DNA from: an uncultured Acidobacteriaceae bacterium
GTDB lineage: Bacteria; Acidobacteriota; Terriglobia; Terriglobales; Acidobacteriaceae
Direction: 5' to 3'
Assembly: GCA_903828675.1 (NCBI GenBank)
Contig: CAIKND010000162.1
Span: forward strand, 1-64,000
DNA: 64,000 nucleotides
Made by a program: the position numbers and the translations under genes
Notes under the pieces: generated by a model
The model's database searches: none
What the model was told of the DNA's origin: nothing
The model's input: the letters and a program-made list of their open reading frames with translations, nothing else
Part shown: positions 17,375 to 48,080 of the stretch, in pieces
How positions within the stretch are numbered: position 1 is the first letter of the stretch
Layout: each line of letters opens with the position of its first letter

Positions 17375-17387
17375 TATGCTTGACCAA

Positions 17388-17416
17388 TTGACATTTGTAG
17401 AACTAATTCGTATTGT
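17388..17416 (+). promoter_or_regulatory. Sigma-70-type promoter of the passenger operon
   Basis: TTGACA (17388-17393), 17-bp spacer, TATTGT (17411-17416), reading toward the 222-aa gene at 17496. A perfect -35 with correct spacing. Confidence 0.6.
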
Positions 17417-17479
17417 AGGCGTTAGCTGATGCCATTTCTGGTTTTTCACCCTACAATGATGTTGAAGAACCAGAAATGG
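17412..17479. promoter_or_regulatory. Operator-like inverted repeats
   Basis: Two nested inverted repeats lie between the promoter and the first gene: ATTGTAGG (17412-17419) with CCTACAAT (17450-17457), and CCATTTCTGGTT (17432-17443) with AACCAGAAATGG (17468-17479), both perfect. The first overlaps the -10 box. They are good candidates for autoregulation by the Xre domain of the downstream gene. A simple transcript hairpin is the alternative. Confidence 0.5.
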
Positions 17480-17495
17480 ATAAAGGAGCGGCAGA

Positions 17496-23321: not shown

Positions 23322-24202
23322 GCGTGGTCCTCATTGAGAAGCTGGTTGCCGTCTATGGTGTAAGTCGTGAAATGCTCACGGTCGAGATCACGATAGAAGC
23401 CGAACAGCTTCTTCCACTTGATGACCGCGAGCGCCGCGTTGAACGCGTTGAGATCTGCGATTTGGATGTTCCGGGAATATTCGTCGTTGCCGTCGCCGTC
23501 AGAGAACGGGATTCGATGCTTCTCCTTCACATGCTCACGGCTCTGGACGGTGCTCGTCGTGACTCGCAGAATGCCACCCAGTGCATCGTCGGTGAGCTCT
23601 ACTCCCATCCCCACGTCGATGAAAGGCGTGCCCCACTCTTCCAGCTTCCCCACGATTAGTTTCTTGGCTTCGCCCTTGTCCATGCACAAGAAGACGAACT
23701 CCATCTCCATCAGCTGCGCGACATTCGAAGCGTCGAGATGATGAGCGTGAGGAACGATGCCGCGGCGCATCTTCGAGTAGATTTTCTCGAAATAGTCGAC
23801 CTTGTAGGGCAACGCCCGCAATTCATCGGCCGAGGGAGCGCCGGGCGATCGGAAGGCGTTATGCTGCAGGAACCGGTCTCCGTCGAAGAGGTGGATCTCT
23901 TTGACCGGCGTCTTGGCAGTGAGGTCGAGGACATACGAGCCCGTTCCGCCGACACCGACGATGCTCAGTTTCTTCAACTCCAGTTTCCTCGTCACTGCCG
24001 TTATCTCCGCCCTGCTTGACGCTGTGTCGAGGTAGTGGAATACCGAGTCCTCGTCCTCCGCTCCGATAACGGGAAAGGTTTGGGCAGTGGCGTTGGGATC
24101 GATGACTCTCGCCGGACCGGAGATGATCGCGGCGTAGGTCGTCATCTTCTCGTAATGGTCCTTGTACCCGTCTGGCGGCTTGCTGGAGAACGAATGATGC
24201 AC
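23318..24202 (-). pseudogene. ThiF/E1-like adenylyltransferase, 5'-truncated
   Basis: 294 codons from GTG 24202. The E1-like fold is clear: LSIVGVGGTGSYVLDL (nucleotide loop), HLFDGDRFLQHNAFRSPG, then FVFLCMDKGEAKKLIVGKL and PFIDVGMGVE. The sequence before it, HHSFSSKPPDGY and KMTTYAAIISGPARVIDP, looks like the end of the N-terminal domain found in full-length proteins of this type. In-frame codons upstream (T-H-L-D-H-D-L-T) continue that domain until a TAG about 24 nt above the GTG. So about 90-100 N-terminal residues are missing. The ATPase domain is intact; whether the remnant is active is open. Confidence 0.65.
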
Positions 24203-28971: not shown

Positions 28972-29283
28972 GTGACCCTAGGAAACGCAATCAAGCTGAT
29001 CCGTACTGCCAAGGGAGTAAAGCAGATCACGCTGGCAAAGCAGTTGGAGGTTTCTCCGAACTACATTTCGCTCGTCGAGAAGGATCGTCGAGAGCCAAGT
29101 GTGAGTTTTTTGCGGAAGCTCGCGGGAAAACTCGGCGTGCCAGTGGGTTTGTTTTTTCTGTGGCAAGACACGGAGAACCCGATTCTCAGGGCTCAAAACA
29201 TGACCGAACTAAGAGATTTGCTGACACGGATCCAAGCAATGTATTTAAGGAGCTTCGAATCAACGGATGAAAACGCCGCCTAA
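28972..29283 (+). CDS. Xre-type regulator
   Basis: 103 aa from GTG 28972 with GAGG upstream; a GTG at 28942 would add an unlikely Cys/Ile-rich start. The HTH is textbook: LGNAIKLIRTAKGVKQITLA, then KQLEVSPNYISLVEKDRREP. It overlaps the reverse transcriptase start by 17 nt. HTH proteins define one class of retrons (type VI), so it may be the retron effector or antitoxin as well as a repressor; the palindrome at 28302-28320 is a possible site. Confidence 0.85.
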   Translation: MTLGNAIKLIRTAKGVKQITLAKQLEVSPNYISLVEKDRREPSVSFLRKLAGKLGVPVGLFFLWQDTENPILRAQNMTELRDLLTRIQAMYLRSFESTDENAA

Positions 29284-30172
29284 TCCGAAGAGGTTTTCCA
29301 TATCAAGTCCGGAAGAGCTCGCAGCGCTCCTTTCGACGAAAGTCGCGCACATCGAGTGGGTGATTTCGCACCTCGGGAGCCTCTACCATCGGAAGGATCG
29401 CCCGAAACCTAACGGGACGAAGCGGACTCTATGGATACCGCACGGCGCGTTGAGGCCGCTACAAGACCAGATTCAAAAGGAAATCCTGGGCAGGTCGAAC
29501 TTCACAGATTGTGCGCATGGAGGAGTTCCGAAAAGGTCGATCATTACGAATGCTAAGCATCATGTGGGGAAACGAATTCTCTCAACAATGGATATCAAGA
29601 ACTGCTTTCCAAGTATCAGTCCTGAGAGAGTGCGAAGAGTGTTTGAAGAGCTAGGCTTTAGCGGCCAGGCACTTTCAATCCTGACAATGCTGACCACGTG
29701 GGAGTTCCAGCTTCCTCAAGGGCCGCCAACTAGTCCAGCGATTGCCAACCTCGCCTTGGCGAACCTAGACCGGCGCCAACTTGGCGTTGCAAAGCAGCAT
29801 GGTTTCACCTACACGCGTTTTGTGGACGATCTCTCGGCTTCGGGGGGCGGCCGGTTAAGAAAGGTGAGGAATTTGCAGGAGCGGATCGTCGAGACTGAGG
29901 GATTCTCGATCAAGCCTCTCAAGGATGGTCAAAAGAAACTGATGTACCGCGAGCACGATCGGCAGGAGACGACGGGGCTCGTAGTGAATCGGAAAATCAA
30001 TCTTCCGCGCGAGAAACGCAAAGGCATCATCGGCGACACAAAGGCCGCGCTTCGTGGAAAAGGTGAAGTAAACGATTCTGAGAAGGGAAAGATTCTCTGG
30101 CTAGCATCTGTAAATCCCGATGCTGGAGCCGCCGTTGTCAAGGCGGTGAGACAGCAAAGGAGACAGCCATGA
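29267..30172 (+). CDS. Retron-type reverse transcriptase
   Basis: 301 aa. It shows the retron-specific motifs: NAKHH (NAxxH, residues ~95-99) before the first catalytic Asp in STMDIKNCFPSI, the catalytic YTRFVDDLSAS (FVDD, about 185) and TTGLVVN (a VTG-like motif, about 235); QGPPTSPAIANLAL is the RT block before the active site. It copies part of its own ncRNA into msDNA. The ATG overlaps the Xre gene by 17 nt and the stop overlaps the exonuclease ATG by 4 nt. Confidence 0.92.
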   Translation: MKTPPNPKRFSISSPEELAALLSTKVAHIEWVISHLGSLYHRKDRPKPNGTKRTLWIPHGALRPLQDQIQKEILGRSNFTDCAHGGVPKRSIITNAKHHVGKRILSTMDIKNCFPSISPERVRRVFEELGFSGQALSILTMLTTWEFQLPQGPPTSPAIANLALANLDRRQLGVAKQHGFTYTRFVDDLSASGGGRLRKVRNLQERIVETEGFSIKPLKDGQKKLMYREHDRQETTGLVVNRKINLPREKRKGIIGDTKAALRGKGEVNDSEKGKILWLASVNPDAGAAVVKAVRQQRRQP

Positions 30173-30816
30173 AGAAGCTAGTTTTGGACATTGAGACGAT
30201 CCCTCTCACAGGTGAGGTCATCACCGAAGAAGAGGCCAAGAAAGCTGCGCTGGATGCGTTGACGGGCAGAATCATATGCATCGGCTTCATCATCATTGAT
30301 GACTTCAGGGCCCAATCCGCCGTTTCGATCGTTTCAGACGACGAAACAAAACTCCTGAGCGGTTTTTGGTCGATGCTGAGGCGCGAGAATATCAAGTCGT
30401 TCGTCGCCCACAACGGCCTGAGTTTCGATCTGCCGTATATTTGGAAACGCTCCGTTATCAACCGAGTTAAACCGTCCCTTGATCTCGACCTCCGCCGTTA
30501 TCGCAGCGATTTTGTTTATGACACTATGTGCGTATGGGGGAATTGGGAGCTACGTGGGAACGCCTCTCTAAACGCTCTTGCAGGCGGCCTGGGCTTGGGC
30601 GCAAAAAGCGGCAGCGGGGGCCAAGTGCTGCAATTATGGCGCGAAGCCCGATACAACGATATTGCCGAGTATTGCTTGCAGGACTGTTGGCTCACCTACC
30701 AGTGCTACGGCCGTATGAACTTTTCGCCGACAACCGACCAAACTGCAGTTGAAGCGGACATTCGCGTAGACGTCAGGTTGCATTCTATGGAAAAGAGCGA
30801 AGTCGTCGAGATCTAG
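30169..30816 (+). CDS. PolB-like DEDDy 3'-5' exonuclease
   Basis: 215 aa. ExoI motif LVLDIETIPL (Asp, Glu), ExoII HNGLSFDLPYIWKR (Asp), ExoIII YCLQDCWLTYQ (YxxxD), the set of DEDDy exonucleases related to the proofreading domain of family B DNA polymerases. The length fits a free-standing exonuclease. Its ATG overlaps the reverse transcriptase stop (ATGA), so it belongs to the retron-like operon. It could trim msDNA or attack DNA when the system is triggered; both are inference. Confidence 0.85.
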   Translation: MKKLVLDIETIPLTGEVITEEEAKKAALDALTGRIICIGFIIIDDFRAQSAVSIVSDDETKLLSGFWSMLRRENIKSFVAHNGLSFDLPYIWKRSVINRVKPSLDLDLRRYRSDFVYDTMCVWGNWELRGNASLNALAGGLGLGAKSGSGGQVLQLWREARYNDIAEYCLQDCWLTYQCYGRMNFSPTTDQTAVEADIRVDVRLHSMEKSEVVEI

Positions 30817-33701: not shown

Positions 33702-35381
33702 TCAATGAGGAATATCTGCCGTGCGTATCAGGACGGTTCCGTCCGGTTCGACACGGCCGGAGAGGTATTTGCTTCGCGCGATGGCTTCAATGGCCGGGCG
33801 ATTTTCGCGGAACACTTCGAGCTTGTTTATGTTGTCGCAGTGGAAATGGTCATCGAGCGCTTCTCTGCTGATAGCGCATCGTACCCGCTGCGCCCGGTCC
33901 TGACCCCAGAACACGATTCCGTCACGACTGGCATCATGCCGTTCTTCCGGTGCAGGGAAGATCAATTTCTTGTTTTCCCACGCTATCTGCCACGCCGCGA
34001 ATTCGCTCGGCCTAACCTGCAGACGCGCGAAATTTCCCTCATGCAGGCTGAGAAGGTCGGACTCGGCCATTTCCCTGAATTTCTCTTGCTTATCCGCTGC
34101 AATGTTGCTCTTCACCCACTCGGCGATATGCGCGCCTGCCTCTTTCCTATCCATGTGCCGCCGCACCACGTCCCCCACGAGCTGACGCAGCGCCTCCCGA
34201 TACAACTGTTTGAATGGATCGGGATCGCCGAGGGACTGCCTCACGGCCGCGTAACGCTCGGCCGACCGCTCATAGGCCCAGATATAGACATCCTTGAGCA
34301 AGTCAACCCCGTTCAACTCATAGATGCCCAGAATGGCGTCCGTGTAGGCCGAACGCGGAACATTGGTAAACGACAGCGGCGACAGGTTTGCCTTGATGAA
34401 AGGAATGTTCGCCGCCAGACGCGATACCCGTTTGTTCACATCGTCGAAGGGTTGAAGGTACGGCAGATGCACCATGGCGAAGAACGATTGCTCGAACGGG
34501 TCATGGATAGCATGCGCCGTTGCAAGTATCTGATTAAAGCATTCCTCGATCAACTGCGGGACTTCGAGAGGATGGAAGGCGGAGCTTTCAATGCCGACCG
34601 CAATGCTCCGCAAGCGTCCGGCCGCCGCTTCATCCGGCAGGAGGTTCTGCGCCAGAATTCCGTGAAGGTTCAGAACCGTATAGCGGTTGAAGTCGATCTC
34701 ATCCGCCGCGCTTACAAGAAACGCGATGGCGTCCTTGTGATTGAGAATCATCTGGGCTTCCAGCCTGTTCCCGCCCTGCGCCTCTTCGCCGAATTCAATC
34801 AGGCGACGGGTATCAAGCAACGTGTAGGTATTGCCTTCGAGCCGGCTTGAGTTCCAGGATAGGTCGATGAGCAGGCGGTTGAGAATCTGCTTCGCATAGG
34901 TTCCGGCCGCTTCGATCCCGGTCTTCGTCTTGCCCACTTCCGCCAGGTGTGCCCGCTCTTTCGGCGAGAGGTAGAAATTCGTGTTGGGTCGATAGCCGTC
35001 GAGAAACTGGCGGTTGTAGCCAACGGCTTTTCTTGCCCCGAACGGCTGCCGCAGATACGCGCGTATCTGCGCGCTTTCGGCGGAGAGAGGCGTCACTACC
35101 TCTTCGAGCTTTTCCTCGTCTGGCCCGGCTTGACGTGCAGCGGTTTCTTTCTGCTGTTCCACTATGATCGGAAGACGATATCGCGCCGCCGGCCCCTTGC
35201 CTTCTTGCACGAGCCGCCCACTCCCCACAAGGCCTTTCAGCCAACGTTGGAGGGTTCGCTGCGGGAAATCCTTCAGAGCCTCAGCAATTTCACCACTCCG
35301 TGCGCCGTTTGCACTTTGCCGCACGAAGTCCACGACCGCTGCCAGGTCTTCTGCTATGTCGCCCACGCGGCGATTTGCCAT
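33702..35381 (-). CDS. Fic family protein with N-terminal HTH and DUF1488-like tail
   Basis: 559 aa. N-terminal winged helix (QSANGARSGEIAEALKDFP, QRTLQRWLKGLVGSGRLVQE), then an inhibitory helix motif SSRLEGN (about 177) and the Fic core HLPYLQPFDDVNKRVSRL (about 313), the HPFxDGNGR motif in the HxPYLQPFDDVNKR variant. The C-terminal DGIVFWGQDRAQRVRCAIS resembles DUF1488. The usual product is AMP transfer to a protein; the N and the lack of GNGR may lower or change the activity. The HTH and the operator array upstream suggest self-regulation. Confidence 0.88.
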   Translation of the reverse strand: MANRRVGDIAEDLAAVVDFVRQSANGARSGEIAEALKDFPQRTLQRWLKGLVGSGRLVQEGKGPAARYRLPIIVEQQKETAARQAGPDEEKLEEVVTPLSAESAQIRAYLRQPFGARKAVGYNRQFLDGYRPNTNFYLSPKERAHLAEVGKTKTGIEAAGTYAKQILNRLLIDLSWNSSRLEGNTYTLLDTRRLIEFGEEAQGGNRLEAQMILNHKDAIAFLVSAADEIDFNRYTVLNLHGILAQNLLPDEAAAGRLRSIAVGIESSAFHPLEVPQLIEECFNQILATAHAIHDPFEQSFFAMVHLPYLQPFDDVNKRVSRLAANIPFIKANLSPLSFTNVPRSAYTDAILGIYELNGVDLLKDVYIWAYERSAERYAAVRQSLGDPDPFKQLYREALRQLVGDVVRRHMDRKEAGAHIAEWVKSNIAADKQEKFREMAESDLLSLHEGNFARLQVRPSEFAAWQIAWENKKLIFPAPEERHDASRDGIVFWGQDRAQRVRCAISREALDDHFHCDNINKLEVFRENRPAIEAIARSKYLSGRVEPDGTVLIRTADIPH

Positions 35382-36054: not shown

Positions 36055-36744
36055 GTGATCGTCGACGAGAACGCATGGCCGAGTTCAGGCGCGGCACAGA
36101 CCGCAGTCGAACAGTGCCCCAATCTCAGCGGGTCCAACGCGGCACAGCCGTCATCTCAAGTCCCAGAACGGGGCAGCCCAATAGAGCTAACCCAACACCT
36201 CGAACAGGGCACAACCATTGCGCTGGCAAGTGTCTCGGCTGACATTGACTTTTTGAGAGGCCAACTCGATGATCTTGCAGGCCTGGTAAGAGCCCGGCTC
36301 TCATATGACCAGACAAAGGAACAAGCATTTGACCGGCTTTACAGCGAGCTCGATGCACTTAAGAAAAACGCAGCTCTTGATAATATCAAGCCACTCCTGC
36401 TAGACCTGATCCTTCTTTACGACCGCATGGAACATGCGAGACAGCTGGCTGCTGACACGCAAGGAAATCTCTCGACCGAGGTCCTTCAATCCTTTATCCA
36501 AGAACTGTTAGAGGTGTTGTATAGACGCGAGGTCAGCCTGATCGAGGCCGGTCCCTCTTCCTTCGACTACAACCAACAAAAGGCGATTGGCGTGGTAGAC
36601 GTGACCGACCCGGCCGAGCACCAACGCATATATAAGGTCGTGCGTCGAGGATTCCGTCTGGGTCAGCGGACTCTCCGCCCCGAAGAGGTAATCGTTTGCC
36701 GCGTGCTAGCTCCGCCACCAAGTGCGAAGCCTGATAGGGACTAG
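36055..36744 (+). CDS. grpE: GrpE-like nucleotide exchange factor
   Basis: 229 aa from GTG 36055 with CGGAG just upstream. Disordered N-terminus, long coiled coil (DIDFLRGQLDDLAGLVRARL, LYSELDALKKNAALDNIKPL), GrpE core DLILLYDRMEHARQL and the C-terminal beta-wing ending IYKVVRRGFRLGQRTLRPEE. The GrpE fold and order are clear. It releases ADP from Hsp70. First gene of the operon; the next gene starts 40 bp after its stop. It is probably not the housekeeping grpE because two unusual hsp70 genes and no dnaJ follow. Confidence 0.85.
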   Translation: MIVDENAWPSSGAAQTAVEQCPNLSGSNAAQPSSQVPERGSPIELTQHLEQGTTIALASVSADIDFLRGQLDDLAGLVRARLSYDQTKEQAFDRLYSELDALKKNAALDNIKPLLLDLILLYDRMEHARQLAADTQGNLSTEVLQSFIQELLEVLYRREVSLIEAGPSSFDYNQQKAIGVVDVTDPAEHQRIYKVVRRGFRLGQRTLRPEEVIVCRVLAPPPSAKPDRD

Positions 36745-36784
36745 GGGTACAAAACATGATGGGGAAACGTGGGAGGATGTTCCT

Positions 36785-38329
36785 GTGATAGAAGAACAGA
36801 TCGTTGTTGGAATCGATTTGGGCACGACCTTCTCAGCCATTGCCTACATCGACCAATACGGTAAGCCTGAGGTGATAGCAAATCGCGAAGGCGATAGGAC
36901 GACGCCCTCCGTCATTTACTTCGACGGAGACAATCCGATTGTCGGTATCGAGGCAAGCCGGATGGCCGTGATTGAACCGAAGCGGACAGTAGAGTGCATT
37001 AAACGTGAGATGGGGAACCCGTCGTACCGGTTCAACATAAACGGCAAAGACTACTTCCCTGAAGATCTTTCGGCAATGATTTTGCGGAAGTTAAAGATTG
37101 ACGCTGAGGCTGTTCTGGGACGCAGTGTTGAAAAGGCCGTCATTAGTGTGCCCGCCTATTTTAAGGATTCCCAGCGGGAGGCGACAAAGCAGGCTGGAAA
37201 GATTGCTGGGCTCGACGTCATCCGCATACTCAATGAACCAACCGCAGCAGCGCTTGCCTATGGGCTTGACAAGGGGATTGGCAGTCAGATCGTTCTCGTC
37301 TACGACTTTGGTGGTGGCACCTTTGACGTAACGCTTATGAAGGTGGAGAACCGGGAGTTCACAATCCTAGCCACCGACGGCGACTCGAACCTTGGAGGAA
37401 GGGATATTGACGCACGCCTCGTAGACTGGTTTGCTGAAGAGGTCCTCCGCGAGCGTGGTGTCGACCTCCGCTTGGACCCTCGCACAAAGCAGGATCTTTG
37501 GGACAAGGCAGAGATAGCCAAGAAGGATCTTTCGTCTCGTGAGGGCGTATCGCCAGTATTGATGGTCGGCGACAAACCGTTACGCGTGGACCTCGACCGG
37601 GCGTCTTTCGAAGAGATGATTCAGGATCTGATTCGCAAGACCCGCGAGTGCATGGAGAGAGCCGTGAGTGCCGCCTCGCTGCCGTGGTCGGGCATTGATA
37701 CGATTCTTCTAGCCGGCGGGTCAAGCCGGATACCTGCGGTCCGGTCGATGATTGCTGCGGTGACTGGTAAGGATGCCGCTCGCGACATGAATCCGGATGA
37801 GTGTGTGGCGATGGGGGCGGCGATTCAAGGCGTTGTCTCCGTCACCGAGTCCGAAGGTCCCTCCGCAGCTCCGCCCCTCGTGGGGGGCGCGGATATCGTT
37901 GTAAGGGATGTGACATCCCACAGTCTCGGGGTTAAAGCTCTTTCAGCTGATCGGAAGAAATACGTCAATAGTATCCTGATCCCCCGCAACACCGTAATCC
38001 CTTGTGAACAAAAAAAGACCTTCGCTACCAATGAGGACAACCAGTCCCGCGTCGAAATCGAAATACTCCAGGGCGAGGACGAAGACCCGCGTTCGCCCGA
38101 GGTGCAACTGATTGGAAAGGCCGGACTCAAGAACCTCCCTCCGCATAAAGCCGGCGATCTCATCATCGAAGTATCACTCAAGTACGACGTCGATGGGGTC
38201 ATTGAGGTTGCCGCGAGCGAGCAGATGAGCGGTCAAACAGTTCGCGAGGCGGTCATGCAGAAGTCCGGGTTGCTCTCGGACGACATCGTCAAGGCGAAAC
38301 AGGCTGAGCTGCAAACAAAGGACCTTTGA
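36785..38329 (+). CDS. Hsp70 (DnaK-like) without C-terminal lid, copy 1
   Basis: 514 aa from GTG 36785, preceded by GGGAGGA; a more upstream start would overlap grpE. ATPase motifs: GIDLGTTFSAIAYIDQYG (phosphate 1), ISVPAYFKDSQREA, NEPTAAALAYGLD, VYDFGGGTFDVTLM (phosphate 2), LLAGGSSRIPAVR. The substrate-binding beta domain follows (FATNEDNQSRVEIEILQGED, VEVAASEQMSG region). It ends at ~residue 510 in a short helix, whereas DnaK is ~638 aa, so the helical lid is missing. It should bind but not clamp clients as DnaK does. Confidence 0.92.
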   Translation: MIEEQIVVGIDLGTTFSAIAYIDQYGKPEVIANREGDRTTPSVIYFDGDNPIVGIEASRMAVIEPKRTVECIKREMGNPSYRFNINGKDYFPEDLSAMILRKLKIDAEAVLGRSVEKAVISVPAYFKDSQREATKQAGKIAGLDVIRILNEPTAAALAYGLDKGIGSQIVLVYDFGGGTFDVTLMKVENREFTILATDGDSNLGGRDIDARLVDWFAEEVLRERGVDLRLDPRTKQDLWDKAEIAKKDLSSREGVSPVLMVGDKPLRVDLDRASFEEMIQDLIRKTRECMERAVSAASLPWSGIDTILLAGGSSRIPAVRSMIAAVTGKDAARDMNPDECVAMGAAIQGVVSVTESEGPSAAPPLVGGADIVVRDVTSHSLGVKALSADRKKYVNSILIPRNTVIPCEQKKTFATNEDNQSRVEIEILQGEDEDPRSPEVQLIGKAGLKNLPPHKAGDLIIEVSLKYDVDGVIEVAASEQMSGQTVREAVMQKSGLLSDDIVKAKQAELQTKDL

Positions 38330-38356
38330 GTGAGGCGTTTACACGGAGAAGGCTGA

Positions 38357-39883
38357 ATGAAATCTCGCGTTGTTGGTATAGACCTTGGAACTACTTTTTC
38401 CGCGATCGCAATCGTGAACGACCACGGGAAGCCGGAAATCATTTCGAACCGCGATGGCGAAGAGATTACCCCGTCGGTTGTTATGTTCGAAGGTAATTCA
38501 CCGATCGTCGGAAGCATCGCTAAACGCTGCGCCGTAGGTAACCCGCTCAGCGTCGCACAGTTCGTGAAGCGGCAGATGGGGGTCCCAACATGGAGCTTTC
38601 GCACCAGTGACGGGAGCAAGTACTCCGCAGAAGAAATCTCTGCGCTGATTCTGAAGAAACTAAAGGAAGATGCTGAGGTCCTTTTGGGCGAGAGTGTCAC
38701 GGATGCAGTCATTACCGTTCCTGCGTATTTTGACGACGCCCAGCGAAAAGCGACCCAAGATGCCGGGCGCATAGCGGGCCTGAATGTGTTGCGAATCATC
38801 AATGAACCCACTGCCGCTGCCCTAGCCTACGGCTTAAACAAGGCCAATACCCAGCAAACGATCCTCATTTACGACCTGGGCGGCGGAACTTTCGACGTCA
38901 CAATAATGAAGATCGGCGAGGGACGCATTGATGTCCTCGCCACAGGCGGTGACAAGAACTTAGGGGGATTCAACTGGGATAACGAGGTGATGACATATCT
39001 TAACGAAGAGTTCAAAAAGTCTGGTGGCCCCGATCTGACAGAAGATTCGACGCTCGAACAGGACCTACGAGACAAAGCAGAGATAGCCAAGAAGACTTTG
39101 TCTACGCGCGAGAGAACGTCGGTGTTCCTGTCTGGTGGTGGCAAGACCGCAACGATTGAGTTGACACTGGAGCATTTCCAAGAGATCACGATGCCTCTTA
39201 TCAAGCAAACCAGCAGGATCATGCAATTCGCTTTGGACGACTCAGGATTGTCATGGGACCAAATTGACAAGTGTCTCCTAGTTGGGGGATCAACCCGCAT
39301 GAAAGCCGTACCCGCAATTGTAGAGTCGATTTCGGGGAGGAAACCGTCTTGCGAGTTGCATCCCGATAAGGTCGTTGCCTTGGGCGCCGCCATTCAAGGT
39401 ACTCTGCTTCACTTGGCGGCAGGGAAGAGCAGCCTTGTCGAGACCGGGACTTTTCCGTTGGTCGTTATCCAGGACGTCAATTCTCATAGCATGGGTATCG
39501 TTGCTCATGATGAATTGAATCGACCGAATAACTCCATCGTCCTGCCAAAGGGCACTCCGTATGGCAAGAGGATCGAGGACGTGTTCTGTACTCTCCAGGA
39601 TCAACAACAATGCATACACGTTCAAGTGACAGAGGGGGAAGACGAAGAAGTCGCTCAAGTCAAGATTCTTGGCGAGAAGGAGATGGCAATTCCCCTTTAT
39701 CCCAAGGGTGCACCGATCCGGGTATCGTTTCTTTACACACCAGACGGCATTGTTCGAGTCGAAGCATTCGACATAACCGCTAACAAGCCCCTCGGCGAGA
39801 TTGAGATTCCGCGAGTCTCTAACAAGACACCGGCACAGGTCGCGGAAAGCATCAGGCGCCTTGCGCCTATAGCAGTTCAGTAG
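38357..39883 (+). CDS. Hsp70 (DnaK-like) without C-terminal lid, copy 2
   Basis: 508 aa. GIDLGTTFSAIAIVNDHG, ITVPAYFDDAQRKA, NEPTAAALAYGLNKA, IYDLGGGTFDVTIMKIG and LLVGGSTRMKAV are intact; a shortened beta substrate domain runs from QDVNSHSMGIVA to VEAFDITANKPLGEI. Like copy 1 it stops without a lid. The two copies clearly share ancestry but have diverged along their length, so they are probably an old pair with separate jobs. Starts 27 bp after copy 1; the next gene follows at 39926 after GAAAGGAGAGAG. Confidence 0.92.
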   Translation: MKSRVVGIDLGTTFSAIAIVNDHGKPEIISNRDGEEITPSVVMFEGNSPIVGSIAKRCAVGNPLSVAQFVKRQMGVPTWSFRTSDGSKYSAEEISALILKKLKEDAEVLLGESVTDAVITVPAYFDDAQRKATQDAGRIAGLNVLRIINEPTAAALAYGLNKANTQQTILIYDLGGGTFDVTIMKIGEGRIDVLATGGDKNLGGFNWDNEVMTYLNEEFKKSGGPDLTEDSTLEQDLRDKAEIAKKTLSTRERTSVFLSGGGKTATIELTLEHFQEITMPLIKQTSRIMQFALDDSGLSWDQIDKCLLVGGSTRMKAVPAIVESISGRKPSCELHPDKVVALGAAIQGTLLHLAAGKSSLVETGTFPLVVIQDVNSHSMGIVAHDELNRPNNSIVLPKGTPYGKRIEDVFCTLQDQQQCIHVQVTEGEDEEVAQVKILGEKEMAIPLYPKGAPIRVSFLYTPDGIVRVEAFDITANKPLGEIEIPRVSNKTPAQVAESIRRLAPIAVQ

Positions 39884-39925
39884 CCGAGCAGCTCGGCGAT
39901 AGCTGTCGAAAGGAGAGAGATCAAA

Positions 39926-41806
39926 ATGAAGCGTACCGTCGAAGAGGTGGGGAACCTGGTCAATTACGAACATCTCAACCAGATGCAAGTGCTAGCATTG
40001 CCAACTCTTAACAAGGAAGACATTCCATGGGCCAATGGAGACATTAAAGGCATCATCACATGCAAGAACTTTGAGAAGGCTAAGCGAAAACTTGAGCAGA
40101 CGATGGAGCGGTATGACCGTAAGGTCACTGATTACAAGAGCAAGTGTGATAGCCTCGAGGCCGACATAAACAGTCTGACCACAGAAATCGGCTACAACAC
40201 AGGCGAAATACCGAGGCCAGGCTTGGGGCGCATTACCGGCGATACTCTGGAAAGCACAAAGCCGACGTTCCTCGACAACGCTGAGGAACATAACAAGCAT
40301 GCGGCGAAGTATAACGCAATCCTTGACCTCGTTCGTAGGCTGCAGGACAAGAGAGCCGCCCTCATTGAAAAGCATAACGATGTTGTCGAGAAGCACAATG
40401 AAGCAATCGAGGAAGCTAGACAAAAGCGCGAAGAGCTATGGAATGAAGCGCTAACCGTAATTGATGACGATATTGTGGCGGTGCTCGACATGTGCACAAA
40501 GACTGCCGAGCGTTTGGCAAATTCTGCAAACTCGCTGGATTGGCTGGCGGCACTCGAGGTTGCCTTTATTGAGCTGAAGCTCTATCACATGCTTGAGGCG
40601 CACATCGACGGAAACAGTCAACGAAAAGAGTGCAAGGAGCGCTTCAACGAAGTGGGTGTGCTGTTCGCCAAACTGGCCGTCAGCGAACACGTTGCAAACC
40701 ATGTCTCAGATCTATTCCGCAGGAACATCTATCTGATCGCGAAAAACGCCGAGTTGTGCGGCCAAACATGCAATGTCCTTGCCGGGGTCGATCAGGGCGC
40801 TGTGGATGCGCAGGTGCGTTCTCTCGCCCAGGTTTTCGGCGAGACTTTCGATACCCAATTCGACTACGAAGGTACAGTAGACCCGTCAGCATTGGATGCA
40901 ATTATAAGCAAGATCAAGGGTTCAATTGCCGCAGTGAAGCGGAATATCGCAAAGGTAACGGAGCTTGCGGCATCAACGAAACCTCTGGCCGGCGCGGCGG
41001 TGGATGCCGACCAGGGTGCCAGAGCTCTTTTAGGGACGATGAAGTCCAACCTTGAGGGCATGAGCACTGAACTCTTGAGTCCGGGCCATTTTGCATGCGA
41101 GATGGTAAACGAAACTGTAATCGATGACTTTTATCACCGCGATCTGCGTCCGGGCGCAGTCACTCTGCGGCAGCAGATTATCACCGCTATCCAGGAGGAG
41201 CCACTCGACGCTCTATTGGCTGCAGATCAGGATCGCTACTCCATTGAGAAGGCCGAGACAGCTATCAAGCAGGCGAATCTTCAGCGTTTGCAGGCAGAGC
41301 GCGAGAAGGTCGACGGCCACGTGACGAAACTGACGAGCATGATCGCAGAGCTTGAATCTCACATCGGCAACGCAGAGAATGTGCCTCAGGCAAACGCGGA
41401 TGCGTTCCGGGCGGATTCCTCGACGAAGTACATCCTCGCCTGCATCCCTTTTATCGGCGTAATGTTCGCCTTCGGAATTCTCGGGAAGATCAAGAGCTTC
41501 GAGGCGGCTTTCAGGAGTACCAACAGCATTTACCGGGACCTTGCCACTGAAATACTCGCGAAAAACGCCAAGATGATGACCGTTTCACTCGTACTTGCTG
41601 GTGTCGTCGGCGTCGGAGGGATGATCGCTTTCTTCGCTTTGCATGTTGGTGCGGCTGCGGTCGTAAACGCGGGTGTTCCCGGCGTCGCCCTCGTGGCCTA
41701 TCTGGGTACGTGGGCATTGATGTCTCAGGCTGGTAAGCAACTTCAATCTTTTCTGGACTCGTCGGCGGAGTCTTCGGCAACCAGCAGCGCAGCCGTAGCA
41801 AGATAA
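39926..41806 (+). CDS. Coiled-coil protein with C-terminal membrane segments
   Basis: 626 aa of unknown family, good ribosome-binding site upstream. Long coiled coils at about 45-85 and 110-185 (KHNDVVEKHNEAIEEARQKR), a helical middle (about 190-440), another coil (AIKQANLQRLQAEREKVDGH), then hydrophobic segments: YILACIPFIGVMFAFGILG (about 495) and two or three near 550-605 (VSLVLAGVVGVGGMIAFFAL, LVAYLGTWALM). The topology suggests a membrane-anchored scaffold or sensor facing the cytoplasm. Its position between the Hsp70s and J-like genes makes it a likely client or partner. Confidence 0.75.
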   Translation: MKRTVEEVGNLVNYEHLNQMQVLALPTLNKEDIPWANGDIKGIITCKNFEKAKRKLEQTMERYDRKVTDYKSKCDSLEADINSLTTEIGYNTGEIPRPGLGRITGDTLESTKPTFLDNAEEHNKHAAKYNAILDLVRRLQDKRAALIEKHNDVVEKHNEAIEEARQKREELWNEALTVIDDDIVAVLDMCTKTAERLANSANSLDWLAALEVAFIELKLYHMLEAHIDGNSQRKECKERFNEVGVLFAKLAVSEHVANHVSDLFRRNIYLIAKNAELCGQTCNVLAGVDQGAVDAQVRSLAQVFGETFDTQFDYEGTVDPSALDAIISKIKGSIAAVKRNIAKVTELAASTKPLAGAAVDADQGARALLGTMKSNLEGMSTELLSPGHFACEMVNETVIDDFYHRDLRPGAVTLRQQIITAIQEEPLDALLAADQDRYSIEKAETAIKQANLQRLQAEREKVDGHVTKLTSMIAELESHIGNAENVPQANADAFRADSSTKYILACIPFIGVMFAFGILGKIKSFEAAFRSTNSIYRDLATEILAKNAKMMTVSLVLAGVVGVGGMIAFFALHVGAAAVVNAGVPGVALVAYLGTWALMSQAGKQLQSFLDSSAESSATSSAAVAR

Positions 41807-41812
41807 TGTGAC

Positions 41813-42409
41813 ATGCCTCTCGATTCGTACGAATACCACCTTCGGTCGTTGAAATTGCCTCGAACTGCCTCTGAGGAAGAGATCCGGGCTGCCCTCACGA
41901 ACGAAGTGCGATTATGGGCGCGGCGCACGAACGCTCCCACTTTGGAGGTCCGCCAGGAAGCAGAACGAAAGATGCAGGCACTCGAAACATCCGAGAGGGT
42001 GCTTTTGGGTGCCGAAGGCCGAATCATAAGAGCCCAGCGTAGCAATCAGCTCAACGCTGTAGCCGAGTCCGTTTCAATTGATTCGGACACGGTCGCGCGT
42101 GCGATTGAGCGTGTTGCCTCAGCGAAGGGGACGAAATCTCAGGAGCGACGCGGCACAGTGCTTTATCGCCGATCCTCTATTTTTTTCTCTGGAGTAGATT
42201 ACCTGATTGAGGAAGTCGTCCACAAGCCGTATGAGGCCTTTCGTAACCAGAAGCGCCTTTGCGCCACGCAAGGTGTTCTAGTGCTCTTTGAATGGCTCAG
42301 TGGGTCGGAGGACCAGAGACAGGGAAAGACGAAGAGCTATGTTCAAGGTCCATGGGCTGCAGAAGTAGTTGCGCTCGCCGCGCAATGTGGGAGTGAAATG
42401 AGGATTTAG
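41813..42409 (+). CDS. J-like protein lacking HPD, short
   Basis: 198 aa, 6 bp after the previous gene. The N-terminal ~65 residues have a J-domain-like helical layout (SYEYHLRSLKLPRTASEEEI, AALTNEVRLWARRTNAP, EVRQEAERKMQALETSERVL). The HPD tripeptide that activates Hsp70 is absent: the loop reads RRTNAPT. The remaining 130 residues are unassigned. The same N-terminal unit occurs in the next gene, so both descend from one J-like module. Confidence 0.65.
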   Translation: MPLDSYEYHLRSLKLPRTASEEEIRAALTNEVRLWARRTNAPTLEVRQEAERKMQALETSERVLLGAEGRIIRAQRSNQLNAVAESVSIDSDTVARAIERVASAKGTKSQERRGTVLYRRSSIFFSGVDYLIEEVVHKPYEAFRNQKRLCATQGVLVLFEWLSGSEDQRQGKTKSYVQGPWAAEVVALAAQCGSEMRI

Positions 42410-42415
42410 GCCGAC

Positions 42416-43399
42416 GTGCAATGTGAGCGCTGTAAACTCCGTATCGATCAGATGGGGCGTCACTGTCCTGGATGCGGAGCTTTGCTGAATAACTCCCCCA
42501 ACTCGGAGGAAGAGAGAGACTATTACGGTTTGTTTGATCTCTCTCCTCACATGTCGTACTCAGAGATACGTGCGAGGCTGGCGCAGGCTTCACGCCTCTG
42601 GGTACATCGGGCGAACAACGCTAACCTCGAAAAGAGGCAGGAAGCCGAACGTATGCTTCAGTACGTATCGGAAGCTGAGGTAGTGCTCCTGAAGTCCTCA
42701 GCACGATCAGCATATGATGCGAAGTGGCGCCAGGGGCAAGGCAGTTCGCAATGCTCAGCCAGAACACCGCCGCAGGGGTCTGCCGGACCTTCTGCGCGCC
42801 CGACCTTCACCTTTGAAGATGCCTCCGAGGCGAGGCCGCGACCGCCCGTTGTGACACCGTGGGATACGCCCTTTCCAGTGCCGGCCTCGGAATCGGGAGG
42901 CGAGACAAGACAGGAGTCCTCGGCTACATCTCGTGGGACTGTTCAGACAAATTGGCTTGGGTGGAGTGAGCTGCGGGGAACGGTAATTCATGTGGACCCG
43001 ATTTATACCGTAACATCTCCCATAAACTGGCCGCGGGTCATGCTCGCTCTCGTCCTATTTCCGGTAGCGGCTTTGGTTGCGGCATTTCTATTCGCATTCT
43101 GGATTGTATGCTCGATCATGTTTCCGCGTTTTTCCAAGTCGATGAATATCACTGACCTCATCCTGTTGCTTTTTCTCCGGGGAAGAGGTGGCTCAGGATC
43201 ACAGGCGCAAGTGCGCGACATCCGTATTCGTGATCTTGCCGGTAATGAGCACTTTGTTCGGATAATTGGACAGATAAAATCGGGAAGCGTAAATGTCGGA
43301 GATGATGTAACGCTTGCTGGCTTTTGTCGAAACGGCACTTTGAGAGCTCGTCGTGGAATCAATCACAGGACCCGATCGATCATCAAGGTTGGCATATGA
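42416..43399 (+). CDS. Zinc-ribbon, J-like, membrane protein lacking HPD
   Basis: 327 aa; the start codon at 42416 is GTG, 6 bp after the previous stop. A zinc ribbon (CERCKLRIDQMGRHCPGC, residues 3-20) precedes a J-like domain (YYGLFDLSPHMSYSEIRARL, RLWVHRANNANLEKRQEAE, then RSAYDAKW) in which HPD is replaced by HRA. After a Pro/Ser linker there is a membrane segment (VMLALVLFPVAALVAAFLF, FAFWIVCSIMF) and a C-terminal beta-rich domain (VRDIRIRDLAGNEHFVRIIG). Membrane attachment and the lost HPD point to a fixed adaptor rather than a cycling cochaperone. The stop overlaps the next ATG (ATGA). Confidence 0.7.
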   Translation: MQCERCKLRIDQMGRHCPGCGALLNNSPNSEEERDYYGLFDLSPHMSYSEIRARLAQASRLWVHRANNANLEKRQEAERMLQYVSEAEVVLLKSSARSAYDAKWRQGQGSSQCSARTPPQGSAGPSARPTFTFEDASEARPRPPVVTPWDTPFPVPASESGGETRQESSATSRGTVQTNWLGWSELRGTVIHVDPIYTVTSPINWPRVMLALVLFPVAALVAAFLFAFWIVCSIMFPRFSKSMNITDLILLLFLRGRGGSGSQAQVRDIRIRDLAGNEHFVRIIGQIKSGSVNVGDDVTLAGFCRNGTLRARRGINHRTRSIIKVGI

Positions 43400-46300
43400 G
43401 TCGTGACGCGAACATCCTAAACTCACTCTTCCGAGTGACGCGTGGCGAATTGGACAACGCCACGGCTCCCCTCCCTGATGCGGAGGGACTTATTCTGACT
43501 TTTGACTGGTGGACCGTTTCTCGTGTTTCCGCTTTTTGGCGTGACCGGCAGGAAGCTTTGCGTCTCTCCTTCGAGGACGCCTGCCTGGACCTCGTGACGG
43601 GGCTAGCCTACGTTGGAACTCCCTGGGCATACTGGATTTCCGGGACCTCGACAAGCACGTCGGTCCTATTCGGCGTACCCCGCAAGACCAGAACAGCCAT
43701 GGAGGCAGTTCGGGGCCTCTTGGGATCATCGTTCCCGGATATTCGACTCCGCATTGCTGAAGTTGCGGAACTGACGCCTAAGGTATCGTTTCAGAACGCG
43801 CTATTGCTGACGGGCATTCCAGCCGAAAAGACAGACCTAAAAAAAGGAATTGCGACTGAGCAGATTGAGAAGGTCTGCCGAGCGATGTATGGTTCTAAGT
43901 GGTCCTACATCGTTCGCGCGGAACCATTATCACGCGCTGAGGTTGTAGCCGCCGTTAACCAAATCACGGAGGAGATTCGTTCAGTCCAGCAGACCATCAT
44001 GCTGAAAGGAACGGTCGACGAGGAGAACCGAGTCGCCAAGCTTTACATCGAGGTTCTCGAGTCTCAGGCAAAGCGTTATGAATCTGCGAGAGGGGGAGGA
44101 TGCTGGAACGCCCAGGCGTTCGTCTTAACAGAGGGAGAGCCTTGGCTGGCTCGGGCCAAGGCGGCAGTCATGAACGCCTTCGCTGGTGAGCGCTCTTACC
44201 CCGTACCGTTCCGTGTGCTGTCATGCACCCATCGTAGTGATCGTTCGCCTGCCGCAAGTGAGGCGTTGACGAGCCGCGAGTTGTCGGTTCTTGTCCAGAT
44301 CCCCCGTGAGTCTTATCCCGGGTACGAGGTTGTCGATCCCGCGAGGTTTTCGCTCCACGCTCCCTCACCATCGAAATTGGGAGTTGCGCGCATTCCTCTC
44401 GGGGATATACTCGACCGAGGTCAGTCGACTGGCAATCGATTCGAGGTTCCGCTTGAGGACTTTGCAAAGCACGTCCTTATCAGTGGTGTCACTGGGAGCG
44501 GCAAGACTAACAGCGCCTTTCGGCTCCTTGAGTCGCTTTGGGTTAATGAGCGTGTCCCATTTCTGATTATTGAGTCTGCAAAATCTGAGTATCGAGACCT
44601 CCTTGGTATCCCTTCATTTAAGGATATGAAAGTTTATACTCTTGGGGATGAGACTATCGCCCCATTTCGCATCAACCCGTTTGAGGTTCCTGATGGGATT
44701 CTCGTCCAAACCCATATCGACTATGTGAAGGCACTCTTCTCAGCGAGTTTCGTGCTCTATCCCCCTATGCCATATGTGCTTGAGCAGAGCTTGCAGGAAG
44801 TCTTTGAGGACCGCGGTTGGGATCTGTCTGCCAACACAAATTATCGCGGGATTGATCCTTACAGGGCATTCCCGACGCTTACGGATCTTCACGCTAAGGT
44901 GAAGACCATCGTAAATCGCATGGGCTATGATCAGCGACTCACTATGGATGTCGTGGCCGGCCTTCAAGCTCGCATAAATCAGCTGAGAATCGGAGGTGGC
45001 AAGGGCCGAATGCTTGATTCACGGAGGTCATTACCACTAGATGAGTTGTTCGCGACGCCGTGCCTGTTAGAACTCAAGCAGATCGTGAGTGACGACGAGA
45101 AAGCGTTCATCATCGGTCTTATTATTATCAGATTGTTGGAGCATCTTGAGCGAAGCCGCACAACTCGACCATTGCATGGGCTACGTCATGTCACGTTCAT
45201 TGAGGAGGCCCACCGGCTGCTTCGTAACATTTCGGAGCACGCGACCGAAGACACGGCGAATCCGCGGGGCAAAGGCGTCGAGGTGTTTGCCAATATTCTT
45301 GCAGAGGTCCGTGCATTTGGAGAAGGGATCGTGATACTGGAGCAGATCCCCAGCAAACTCGCATCAGACGCGATCAAGAACACGAACTTAAAAGTCGTTC
45401 ACCGGATCGTCGCAAAGGATGAACGAGAATGCCTCGGTGCGTCCATGCGCTCGGAACCCCAACAAACCGCCTACTTTGGCGTCCTCAACGCAGGGGAGGC
45501 TGTCGTGTTTGCGGAAGGAATGGACACCCCAGCATTGATATCGGTTCCATTGGCCGCCGCCAAGGGGATTGGAAAGATCGGCGTCAGTGACGATTTCATC
45601 AGGAATGCTTGGGCCTCATCTGTCGATTCTAGCCTGTACCAGAGATCCTCTTGGTGCTTGAAATGCCCAGGCTTTCGTCAATCTTCCCGCTGTATGGCTG
45701 ACACTGCGATATGGCAAGGCCAAGCCAAGCCCGCATTCGAAGCTTTTCACTCAGCTTTAGCTCACAACCGTGCGTTCCTTAGGCAGGCTTACACTGACGT
45801 AGAGTTGGCCTGTAGCGGGGGCAGCGCCACCGTGGGGGCACCGAAGGGCGAATTGCTGTGTACTCTGAACGCGTTTCTGGAAAGTGCAATCGAGGTGCGG
45901 GGTAGCTTCGCCGGGTGGCAGTTTGCCTCCGTCGCGGAATTGTCGGAGTTGGCCGCCGCGACGACCAAGGCCCTCGCCGAGCAACGGGACGCCTCAAACG
46001 CCAAGGTAGCTGATCGCGGCGTCGCGAGAGTCGCAGCGCACTACGGGCGCGCTTACGAACGGCTCGGCAAAACCGAAAGCGGTCCATTCGCCGGTTGCCG
46101 AGTTTGTAGCCGACGTTGTGAGTTTCGCTACGAGGCATCCGGGGAGGATCGTAATATGACCGCAGCCGAGTATTTTCGAGACGACTTCGCGCAGGGAGCG
46201 GGTGATCCAAAGCGGTTGGGTCTGGTGGCGTGGGGTATGACAAGAGGGTACGTCTATTCTAAGGATGTGACGACGCGCCGACACATGGCCCTTTGCTTCG

Positions 46301-46419
46301 CATGTCAACAGGCTGCAGCATTGGGCCTATCCACCCATAATCAACATGCGCTAGTGGAAGATATCAGCGATCAGGTTCAGATTCTGGCGGAGGAAGAACA
46401 TGGCACGATCTCAGCCTGA
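43396..46419 (+). CDS. HerA/DUF87-type ATPase with C-terminal Cys clusters
   Basis: 1,007 aa from ATG 43396, overlapping the J-like gene stop by 4 nt. The N-terminal ~340 residues are an unassigned region; the ATPase has Walker A ISGVTGSGKTNSA (about 365) and Walker B VTFIEEAHRLL (about 600), with ILEQIPSKLASDAIKNTN (sensor-like) and VVHRIVAKDERECLGASM as in HerA/FtsK-type translocases. The C-terminus has three Cys clusters: CLKCPGFRQSSRC (about 754), CRVCSRRCEFR (about 901) and CFACQQ (about 967), probable zinc sites. It should form a hexameric DNA or protein pump. Confidence 0.85.
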   Translation: MSRDANILNSLFRVTRGELDNATAPLPDAEGLILTFDWWTVSRVSAFWRDRQEALRLSFEDACLDLVTGLAYVGTPWAYWISGTSTSTSVLFGVPRKTRTAMEAVRGLLGSSFPDIRLRIAEVAELTPKVSFQNALLLTGIPAEKTDLKKGIATEQIEKVCRAMYGSKWSYIVRAEPLSRAEVVAAVNQITEEIRSVQQTIMLKGTVDEENRVAKLYIEVLESQAKRYESARGGGCWNAQAFVLTEGEPWLARAKAAVMNAFAGERSYPVPFRVLSCTHRSDRSPAASEALTSRELSVLVQIPRESYPGYEVVDPARFSLHAPSPSKLGVARIPLGDILDRGQSTGNRFEVPLEDFAKHVLISGVTGSGKTNSAFRLLESLWVNERVPFLIIESAKSEYRDLLGIPSFKDMKVYTLGDETIAPFRINPFEVPDGILVQTHIDYVKALFSASFVLYPPMPYVLEQSLQEVFEDRGWDLSANTNYRGIDPYRAFPTLTDLHAKVKTIVNRMGYDQRLTMDVVAGLQARINQLRIGGGKGRMLDSRRSLPLDELFATPCLLELKQIVSDDEKAFIIGLIIIRLLEHLERSRTTRPLHGLRHVTFIEEAHRLLRNISEHATEDTANPRGKGVEVFANILAEVRAFGEGIVILEQIPSKLASDAIKNTNLKVVHRIVAKDERECLGASMRSEPQQTAYFGVLNAGEAVVFAEGMDTPALISVPLAAAKGIGKIGVSDDFIRNAWASSVDSSLYQRSSWCLKCPGFRQSSRCMADTAIWQGQAKPAFEAFHSALAHNRAFLRQAYTDVELACSGGSATVGAPKGELLCTLNAFLESAIEVRGSFAGWQFASVAELSELAAATTKALAEQRDASNAKVADRGVARVAAHYGRAYERLGKTESGPFAGCRVCSRRCEFRYEASGEDRNMTAAEYFRDDFAQGAGDPKRLGLVAWGMTRGYVYSKDVTTRRHMALCFACQQAAALGLSTHNQHALVEDISDQVQILAEEEHGTISA

Positions 46420-47227
46420 GGCTTCGGATCAAAACCGTGAATTGGGAGATGCGCAGCCACTTCGGAAGATGCTGTTGAATCCAGATCGAGTCCTCGAGAC
46501 GCGCGTCCGTGAGCGGATCGAGAGCGGCCAACGTTTTCATGATGCACTTGGCGCAGACCGGCTCGATCCGGATCGTGTGCTAGAACGGAGGCGTCGTGGC
46601 GAGGCCGACCGAATCGCGTCTCCGACCAGTGAAATCCGAGAAAAGACGGTGGAACACGCTGAGCAAGTACCCTCGAAGCGAAAAATTATTGAAGACCGTA
46701 CCGCCGATGAGATCATGGCAATAAAAGCTTCCCATCCTTCTGAAATGCGAGGGGATGCCGCAGCGCTTTGGGAGCCCGTCCATCGACGAAACTATTCAGA
46801 ATTCATCGATGGTGTTGCCAAGGGCAAGCTGCAACAGGGAGAGCATCTCGAATCCAGAAAAGTGTGGGCTGACCAGATAGCCCCAATCAGTGTGACATCG
46901 CCGGAGCAAAACGTCGAATCCGGCGAGTTTTGGCGTCACCATGACAACGGGCCAAGCTTCTATCGCAGAATGGGAGAATCTTATCCCGAATTGGATGAGC
47001 AATTGAAGAAGGGGAAGAGTGCAAAGGAATTGGCGAATGATCCAGCATTCAAGGAGGCGGCTGCCTTTTGGTACGGTGCCTCACCGCTGAAATTGGACCA
47101 CTACAAAGATAGCTACTTCTGCGACGAATCCGGACACCACCGGGTGGCGCTCGCTCACCGGTATCAACTCGATGGGATTCCGGCGCAGGTTCGCGAATGG
47201 AATGACAGGACGGAACAACATCTTTGA
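46400..47227 (+). CDS. ParB-like C-terminal domain protein
   Basis: 275 aa, ATG 46400 overlapping the ATPase gene by 20 nt. The N-terminal 100 residues are charged and disordered with two short repeats (NPDRVLETRVRERIESGQRF / DPDRVLERRRRGEADRI). The C-terminal SYFCDESGHHRVALAHRYQL and DGIPAQV resemble the ParB/Srx-like core (G-HR--A---G--IPA-V). ParB-like domains can be nucleases or CTPases, but the usual catalytic neighbours are not clear here. Last gene of the chaperone-ATPase operon. Confidence 0.55.
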   Translation: MARSQPEASDQNRELGDAQPLRKMLLNPDRVLETRVRERIESGQRFHDALGADRLDPDRVLERRRRGEADRIASPTSEIREKTVEHAEQVPSKRKIIEDRTADEIMAIKASHPSEMRGDAAALWEPVHRRNYSEFIDGVAKGKLQQGEHLESRKVWADQIAPISVTSPEQNVESGEFWRHHDNGPSFYRRMGESYPELDEQLKKGKSAKELANDPAFKEAAAFWYGASPLKLDHYKDSYFCDESGHHRVALAHRYQLDGIPAQVREWNDRTEQHL

Positions 47228-47580: not shown

Positions 47581-48080
47581 CTATGAGTTACCAACCACCG
47601 TGGATCTGTCACGGCAGAGGTCGCGGGTTCGAGCCCCGTCGTCCCCGCCATACAAAGCAAAGGACTTAAGCTTGTATGGCACCTCAAGTGACAATCCACA
47701 ATCCGATCCACAAAATCGTTGCACTAGACGACTTCCAAGTCCTACCGCGTCTAAGAAGGCGCCCTGTGCCGCTTGCTTTTCGTCGCGGTCATCCTGCGTG
47801 TAGAGGTTCATGGTCATGCGGATATCGCTATGCCGCAACATCCCCTGTACCGTCTTCGGATCGATCTTCCCCTTGTTCGCCAGCCAGGTGCTTAAGCTGT
47901 GCCGCATGTTGTGAAGGCCGAAGCGTTGCCCTTCGCAAGTAAGACTCCAGCGCTGACTGCCGCCGGTCGCAGATGGTCCTGCACGAAAATCGACAACGAA
48001 AGTGGCACCTTGCCGTCCCTGACCAGCGACGGAAAGGCTATCGCCGGACCGCATTAAATGCGGAGAGATGGAAGCGCGCT
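47581..48080 (-). pseudogene. Tyrosine integrase, C-terminal remnant
   Basis: On the minus strand about 160 codons remain. LHNMRHSLSTWLANKG holds the HxxR box and LRHSDIRMTMNLYTQ contains the box II/III His and nucleophilic Tyr of phage-type integrases. The first catalytic Arg, the core-binding domain and the start are missing; the frame is closed by TGA at about 48,080, only a few bp from the end of the peptidase gene. The C-terminal end reads through the tRNA fragment, as integrases next to their attachment site often do. It is dead. Confidence 0.8.
47606..47650 (+). tRNA. tRNA-Asp(GTC) 3' fragment, attachment-site duplication
   Basis: From the anticodon loop CTGTCAC (47606-47612; GTC at 47608-47610) the sequence continues with the 3' anticodon strand GGCAG, variable loop AGGTC, a perfect T arm (GCGGG TTCGAGC CCCGT), the acceptor strand CGTCCCC, discriminator G and encoded CCA (47648-47650). 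Upstream of the loop the sequence does not complete a tRNA: TGGAT cannot pair with GGCAG. So this is the half-copy left by integration at a tRNA-Asp gene, probably an attR site. Confidence 0.85.

Follow-up and report, generated by a model that had tools for sequence, protein, structure and literature searches.

A pair of J-like proteins devoid of the HPD motif, encoded in one operon with two lidless Hsp70s and a HerA-type ATPase

J domains normally switch on Hsp70 chaperones, and a tripeptide, HPD, is their trigger. In a 64,000-nucleotide stretch of DNA from an uncultured Acidobacteriaceae bacterium (contig CAIKND010000162.1, positions 1 to 64,000; hereafter "the window"), an eight-gene operon encodes two adjacent proteins, J1 and J2, that profile comparisons show to be descended from J domains and that both lack HPD. 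The HPD-less J feature is real and recurs in other bacteria. The reading that we favour, with slightly less than even confidence, is that of a dedicated Hsp70 machine combined with a HerA ATPase, in which J1 and J2 would dock on the Hsp70s, or pair up to organise them, without triggering hydrolysis, while HerA would act on an effector in conflict.

The operon occupies positions 36055-47227 of the plus strand, as do all genes named in this paragraph, and is tightly packed: neighbouring genes share 23, 4 and 20 bases in three cases and are separated by 6 to 42 bases in the other four. It begins with a divergent GrpE (36055-36744; Pfam GrpE, E 1.1e-14), the second GrpE of the genome, followed by Hsp70-A (36722-38329; 535 aa; Pfam HSP70, E 2.6e-142) and Hsp70-B (38357-39883; 508 aa; Pfam HSP70, E 3e-131), both without the C-terminal lid and with an altered linker, as seen in alignments. 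Since the same genome encodes elsewhere one stronger GrpE and two further Hsp70s, these three genes constitute an additional set. The fourth gene (39926-41806) encodes a coiled-coil-like protein of 626 aa with hydrophobic segments at residues 502-520 and 553-571; its matches to coiled-coil families are weak and all below Pfam cut-offs, PADLOC matches to LmuB (E 6e-4 and worse) were judged to be chance, and no match was found among plasmids. J1 (41813-42409; 198 aa) consists of an N-terminal HPD-less J-like domain and a C-terminal part of no assigned family, while J2 (42416-43399; 327 aa, GTG start) combines a CxxC...CxxC motif at residues 3-20, a putative zinc ribbon, with an HPD-less J-like domain, a single hydrophobic stretch at residues 208-226 as putative membrane anchor, and a C-terminal stretch like that found in proteins whose genes precede HerA homologues in actinobacterial plasmids. 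The HerA/FtsK-superfamily ATPase (DUF87; 43396-46419) scores 26.6 bits with the Pfam DUF87 model (cut-off 23.2), matches NF033849 at 1.4e-32, which is under that model's cut-off, and has a Walker A motif at residues 364-371; its start is placed at ATG 43396, the longest open reading frame beginning at TTG 43324. The last gene (46400-47227; 275 aa) has no family match: Pfam, PHROGs and PDB sequences returned no convincing hit, and PADLOC and NCBIfam none at all; a ParB-type fold, suggested by a motif, found no support in library searches. It is a candidate cargo or effector by virtue of its position.

Several further genes lie around the operon. A Type III restriction-methylation pair enclosing a PDC-S05-type (RhuM-like) gene, an SNF2/HKD-type helicase and an RmrA-like gene (PADLOC) is found at 6267-19269, and at 22929-24202 a DUF6527 gene overlaps a DUF6791/ThiF (E1-like) gene with weak PADLOC E1-E2 matches. 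At 29267-30816, a reverse transcriptase (best PADLOC model RT_XIII, 4e-67) overlaps the next gene, which encodes a PolB-type 3'-5' exonuclease (Pfam 2.7e-18), together a possible RT-exonuclease defence pair. The operon itself is flanked on the opposite strand by a gene for a Fic protein with a C-terminal DUF1488 domain just upstream (33702-35381) and by a tyrosine recombinase (integrase) fragment directly downstream (47581-48054; Pfam 1.1e-9). No tRNA was found in a search of the window.

The initial annotation had recognised a J-like pair at 41813-43399 from the letters alone; both open reading frames are present as described, and their J ancestry is borne out by profile searches. The two proteins are related to each other (BLASTP, 49% over 51 aa, E 5e-10), and the helical pattern that they were said to share is a composite of QEAERKMQALETSERVLL in J1 and QEAERMLQYVSEAEVVLL in J2. 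The stretch RSAYDAKW, reported for the second protein, is indeed present in J2 only, J1 being devoid of such a helix IV stretch. When J1, J2 and their relatives from the loci L026, L073 and L074 described below were combined into an HPD-less profile of five rows, it matched 39 PDB sequences at E<=0.01, and all 39 are J-domain chains, with a best E of 2.8e-12 and E. coli DnaJ (5nro_B) at 1.6e-6. Conversely, a profile built from 39 J domains that do have HPD ranked J2 first (E 4.9e-11; 41.7 bits) and J1 second (7.7e-7; 26.6 bits) among the 539 open frames of the window; because these domains had been chosen via a profile containing J1, J2 and the L026 sequence (L026, L032, L055 and L007 having been removed beforehand), the E-values are flattering, and the search of the PDB with the HPD-less profile is the cleaner test of ancestry. 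Shuffled sequences reached at best 9.9 bits for J2 (4926 of 5000 scored) and 10.2 bits for J1 (4890 of 5000 scored). With the Pfam DnaJ model, the L026 relative passes the cut-off at 35.2 bits, J2 attains 17.8 bits (E 0.0036; gathering cut-off 27.8) and is thus not a member, and J1 is not among the matches at E<=1. A PADLOC match of J1 to NsnC (E 0.006) was judged to be chance.

Comparison of AlphaFold models with J domains, which the initial annotation had suggested, gave a mixed outcome. The J2 domain, modelled from a two-row alignment, has a pLDDT of 86.6 and helices at residues 5-13, 22-39 and 45-82 (the other four models: pLDDT 68.5 to 81.3), while the structure model of J1 (pLDDT 42) is uninformative. 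J-domain chains take up the Foldseek ranks 1-29 for the J2 domain, all at E 0.1 or worse, and in VIA-align the best J domain (Z 7.4) is closely followed by an unrelated helical chain (Z 7.0). The absence of any Foldseek match at E<=0.001 and the narrow distance between these Z-scores could be taken to favour a chance helical resemblance to J domains; however, the exclusively J-domain matches of the HPD-less profile speak strongly against it, as do the far lower scores of the shuffles, and we consider such a coincidence hardly credible. Fold scores by themselves fail to tell a J domain apart from another helical chain, and J ancestry is decided by sequence.

Neither J1 nor J2 has HPD, as had been noted initially, and the only HPD within the eight operon proteins lies in a stretch ELHPDK of Hsp70-B. 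The conserved Trp is kept in all five HPD-less members and is followed by ARR in J1, VHR in J2, TRK in L026, SKA in L073 and TKK in L074, compared with W-HPD in canonical relatives, the placement of gaps within this loop of the five-member alignment being uncertain. Helix II of the HPD-less members differs from canonical J domains as well; more than the tripeptide has therefore been altered. The weak scores and the missing helix IV residues of J1 could also be read as decay of J domains that no longer have a function. This appears very improbable to us given that the genes are open and tightly spaced and that the five relatives, which come from three phyla, agree without exception at Tyr, Leu, Trp, Glu and Arg positions.

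As to whether the HPD position is always lost in homologues, an alignment of the kind proposed in the initial annotation gives an answer that depends on distance: HPD is absent in the near family (L026, L073, L074) and present in distant relatives. Matches of the whole J2 in four other genomes of the phylum (L003-L006) are ordinary HPD J domains, and among the distinct J matches in the examined loci—the best loci and further places of mostly odd length among the matches listed, which is no survey, so that HPD-less members number at least those counted—80 of 87 have HPD. The other seven comprise the five profile rows, one J1 fragment and a planctomycete sequence (L007).

Searches for the family elsewhere returned three clear loci besides the window. 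The first, on a plasmid of Rhodococcus pseudokoreensis (L026), was discovered via an Hsp70 search and not via its J domain; it encodes a lidless Hsp70, an HPD-less J protein that contains TPR and has a hydrophobic end, a GrpE, an EccCa-like FtsK ATPase (NCBIfam 3.1e-25, under that model's cut-off) and small genes. Two of its genes were taken by eye for a WXG100 protein and a toxin; library searches gave no support, with WXG100 unconfirmed in three libraries. The second (L073), a 9-kb contig from the window's phylum, encodes an Hsp70, an Hsp70-vWA fusion, an HPD-less J protein and GAP1-N2 (Pfam E 5.9e-37), and no GrpE match was found in the contig; its J protein has an HPD-less first J-like domain, a zinc-ribbon-like part and, by eye, FNIII-like parts. 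The third, on a plasmid of the cyanobacterium Gloeothece (L074), encodes an HPD-less J protein with hydrophobic segments, and no Hsp70 relative was found in its 20 kb. Accordingly, an Hsp70 gene adjoins the J gene or shares its operon in three of the four clear HPD-less loci (the window, L026 and L073; not L074), and GrpE stands beside both in the window and in L026. The planctomycete locus L007, the single weak match of whole J2 in genome contigs, is HPD-less, scores 15.4 bits with the family profile and lacks an Hsp70 relative; it was left out as a family locus, and counting it would bring the Hsp70 link to three of five. No matches were obtained with whole J2 in plasmids or viral contigs, nor with a three-row J profile in viral contigs, and the J2 domain alone matched plasmids only at E 0.02 to 0.9.

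The Hsp70s linked to these J genes are themselves unusual. All five (Hsp70-A and Hsp70-B, the Hsp70 of L026 and the pair of L073) are separated from ten canonical DnaKs by a branch with support of 100/99, in a tree built from trimmed rows, with partial sequences or near-copies among the DnaKs and long branches for L073a, L073b and L079. The interdomain linker LLDVTP is present in 10/10 canonical DnaKs and in none of the five linked Hsp70s, all of which, by alignment, lack the canonical DnaK lid, L073b carrying vWA in its place. The best plasmid match of Hsp70-B is the L026 Hsp70 (47.5%); Hsp70 matches occurred in 173 plasmid records, and of the three neighbourhoods examined (L026, L027 and L028), the latter two contain canonical DnaKs. 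A search with Hsp70-B at E<=1e-140 gave no match in 296 other genomes, a limit that hides moderately distant members such as the L073 Hsp70s and that Hsp70-A reaches only with 7e-147.

Active-site motifs are kept in Hsp70-A and Hsp70-B. One could thus imagine that the J-like domains have retained the ability to stimulate their own Hsp70s via a rebuilt contact, in which other residues are matched by the changed Hsp70 linker, and it is true that loss of HPD accompanies a changed linker in 5/5 linked Hsp70s versus 0/10 canonical ones. We regard this as distinctly unlikely, however. Passages of a published study describe R167 of DnaK as the interaction partner of the HPD aspartate and R167H as a suppressor of DnaJ D35N (PMC7289447); the arginine kept in the window and L026 Hsp70s appears by motif to be the equivalent of R167 (Tyr and Gln are found in L073). 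With this arginine kept in the window and its published partner gone, the known trigger would not be expected to work as in DnaJ/DnaK. Furthermore, an Arg or Lys is situated three residues past the Trp in J1, J2, L026 and L074.

A serious alternative, albeit on balance an unlikely one, holds that the J-like domains are Hsp70-independent scaffolds, whose fold would have been retained in order to pair J1 with J2 and to position the zinc ribbon, the membrane segment and the HerA partner. Trypanosome Pam16/Pam18 and many J-like proteins of plants have been proposed to act in this way (PMC11349236, in part); such a role would agree with the simultaneous change of HPD and much of helix II, and with L074, where an Hsp70 relative is missing from the 20 kb. 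What weighs against it is that three of the four clear loci have Hsp70s adjacent to the J gene or in its operon, and that these Hsp70s fall to one side of a branch with good support. Helix II is described in PMC7289447, again in the passages concerned, as providing the main electrostatic contacts with Hsp70, but the same passages describe contact residues as varying from pair to pair, so that a changed helix II alone does not exclude binding. That J1 and J2 hold Hsp70 is plausible because of gene linkage and the parallel change of the Hsp70 linker.

On the HerA side, homologues are patchy: they were found in 5/296 other genomes of the phylum at 1e-10, in 1/297 others of the order, in 2/199 genomes of the phylum of L007 at 1e-20, in 43 plasmid records (neighbourhoods examined for 6) and in two phage records, and 14 HerA loci besides the window were compared. 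J2 occupies the slot before HerA in which four actinobacterial plasmids (L014-L017) encode a protein that, judged by eye, is hydrophobic at its C-terminal end and, in the case of L014-L016, also bears zinc-ribbon motifs. The J2 C-terminus matches the protein of L015 by BLASTP (68% over 22 residues, E 3e-5), and the actinobacterial HerA-upstream proteins more generally by hhalign, modestly (E 1e-4, probability 56%). We infer that J2 may be a HerA partner protein with an inserted J domain. No J1 or J2 match was found in the 14 other HerA loci and no HerA match at 1e-3 in L026, L073 and L074, several of the loci being short in both comparisons; among the loci compared, the pairing of J and HerA is seen in the window alone, which counts against a general J-HerA system. 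Hsp70-like genes occur upstream of HerA in two of the 14 other loci, adjacent in L020 and at about 3 kb in L018, and are distant (23-26% identity). In the Hsp70-like protein of L020 (7247-8956), encoded directly upstream of HerA, one part resembles a zinc ribbon and another L7/L12, each scoring under its Pfam cut-off. Two loci from the phylum of L007 (L036, L037) have dynamin-like GTPase genes near their HerA homologues. The genes after HerA vary, with a WHH nuclease-like gene in L037 (1.5e-16), a third gene with weak metallopeptidase matches in L018, and no convincing match in the remaining scanned loci.

Besides GrpE and the two lidless Hsp70s, the machine that we tentatively propose would comprise the coiled-coil membrane protein, the pair of HPD-less J-like proteins, a pumping ATPase of the HerA type and the product of the last gene. 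The J1/J2 pair might dock on, or pair up to organise, the Hsp70s of the operon, leaving ATP hydrolysis untriggered; J2 might fix the assembly to the membrane next to the HerA ring; and HerA might move or release the effector, against phages or competitors. The genes upstream of the operon (a type III restriction pair, SNF2 helicase, RmrA-like, E1-like/ThiF and helicase-nuclease genes, a reverse transcriptase and Fic) form a defence island, which favours a conflict role, though it is no proof of one. In favour of the machine, we count the J ancestry and the modelled fold, the absence of HPD in 5/5 members, the Hsp70 link in three of four clear loci, the Hsp70 branch and linker, tight gene packing, the HerA slot, the Hsp70-like genes before HerA in L020 and L018, nearby defence genes, and the Rhodococcus Hsp70, J and GrpE beside an EccC-like ATPase. 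Counted against it are the changed helix II, L074 without an Hsp70 relative in its 20 kb, a J-HerA pairing seen in the window alone among the loci compared, Hsp70-like genes in no more than two of the 14 other HerA loci, the modest J2 C-terminal match, a cargo role assigned by position, a tree with long branches and near-copies, and weak fold scores. A bolder proposal, which we consider possible though doubtful, is a separate bacterial lineage of Hsp70 machines in conflict systems that dispenses with the HPD trigger. In this view, J domains lacking HPD would have co-evolved with lidless Hsp70s, whose interdomain linker was rewritten, to form a nucleotide-gated clamp or scaffold; this would be coupled to various engines (of HerA type in the window, of EccC type in Rhodococcus, and GAP1 systems in the case of L073) in order to hold or hand over an effector. 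An HPD-less family that keeps a dedicated Hsp70 is a natural test of J-domain roles besides triggering hydrolysis, and provides a route to asking how conflict systems combine chaperones and pump ATPases.

In the literature searched, mostly without subscription papers, neither HPD-less J domains in bacterial conflict systems nor their coupling to HerA were recognised among the matches listed. Phage sensing by bNACHT25 is mediated by DnaJ (PMC12169576). J-like proteins with degenerate HPD are known from trypanosomes and plants, as stated in sections of PMC11349236. The mitochondrial Pam16/Pam18 proteins, which in the same sections are membrane-linked, have a J-fold, pair with each other and act beside Hsp70 or independently, resemble J1 and J2, by description, in being J-like with degenerate HPD (PMC11349236); unlike them, J1 and J2 differ at all three HPD residues, and the motif is missing from both partners. 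Type VII secretion EccC/EssC operons share with the Rhodococcus locus an EccCa-like ATPase, whereas the ATPase of the window is HerA-type; FtsK-like ATPases have long been described as toxin-export motors (PMC3482391, in part).

Extended Type III-A CoCoNuTs comprise, according to the main text of PMC11090510, Hsp70-like parts and EssC-like/WXG100 cassettes as well as EccE3-HerA ATPases, whose role is left there between mobilisation and secretion; the term "DnaJ" is absent from that main text. A homologue of the window HerA (32%) adjoins a DUF2357 gene in a Photobacterium plasmid (L019) and fits these EccE3-HerA ATPases; the likeness is that of L019, whereas none of the eight window operon proteins has a Pfam match to McrB (the McrB-type GTPase) or DUF2357. 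Also close are the GAP1-N2 conflict systems, whose HSP70 theme has been published as combining HSP70 and GrpE with another HSP70, a truncated one, and with a DnaJ component (Kaur et al. 2020, PMC7159879); the terms "HPD", "J domain" and "J-domain" are absent from the main text of that paper. The window operon differs from them in that its eight proteins have no GAP1 or GTPase Pfam match and include a HerA ATPase instead, but it shares HSP70, GrpE and a J-type component, and L073, with two Hsp70s and GAP1-N2, fits these systems, with a first J-like domain that is HPD-less.
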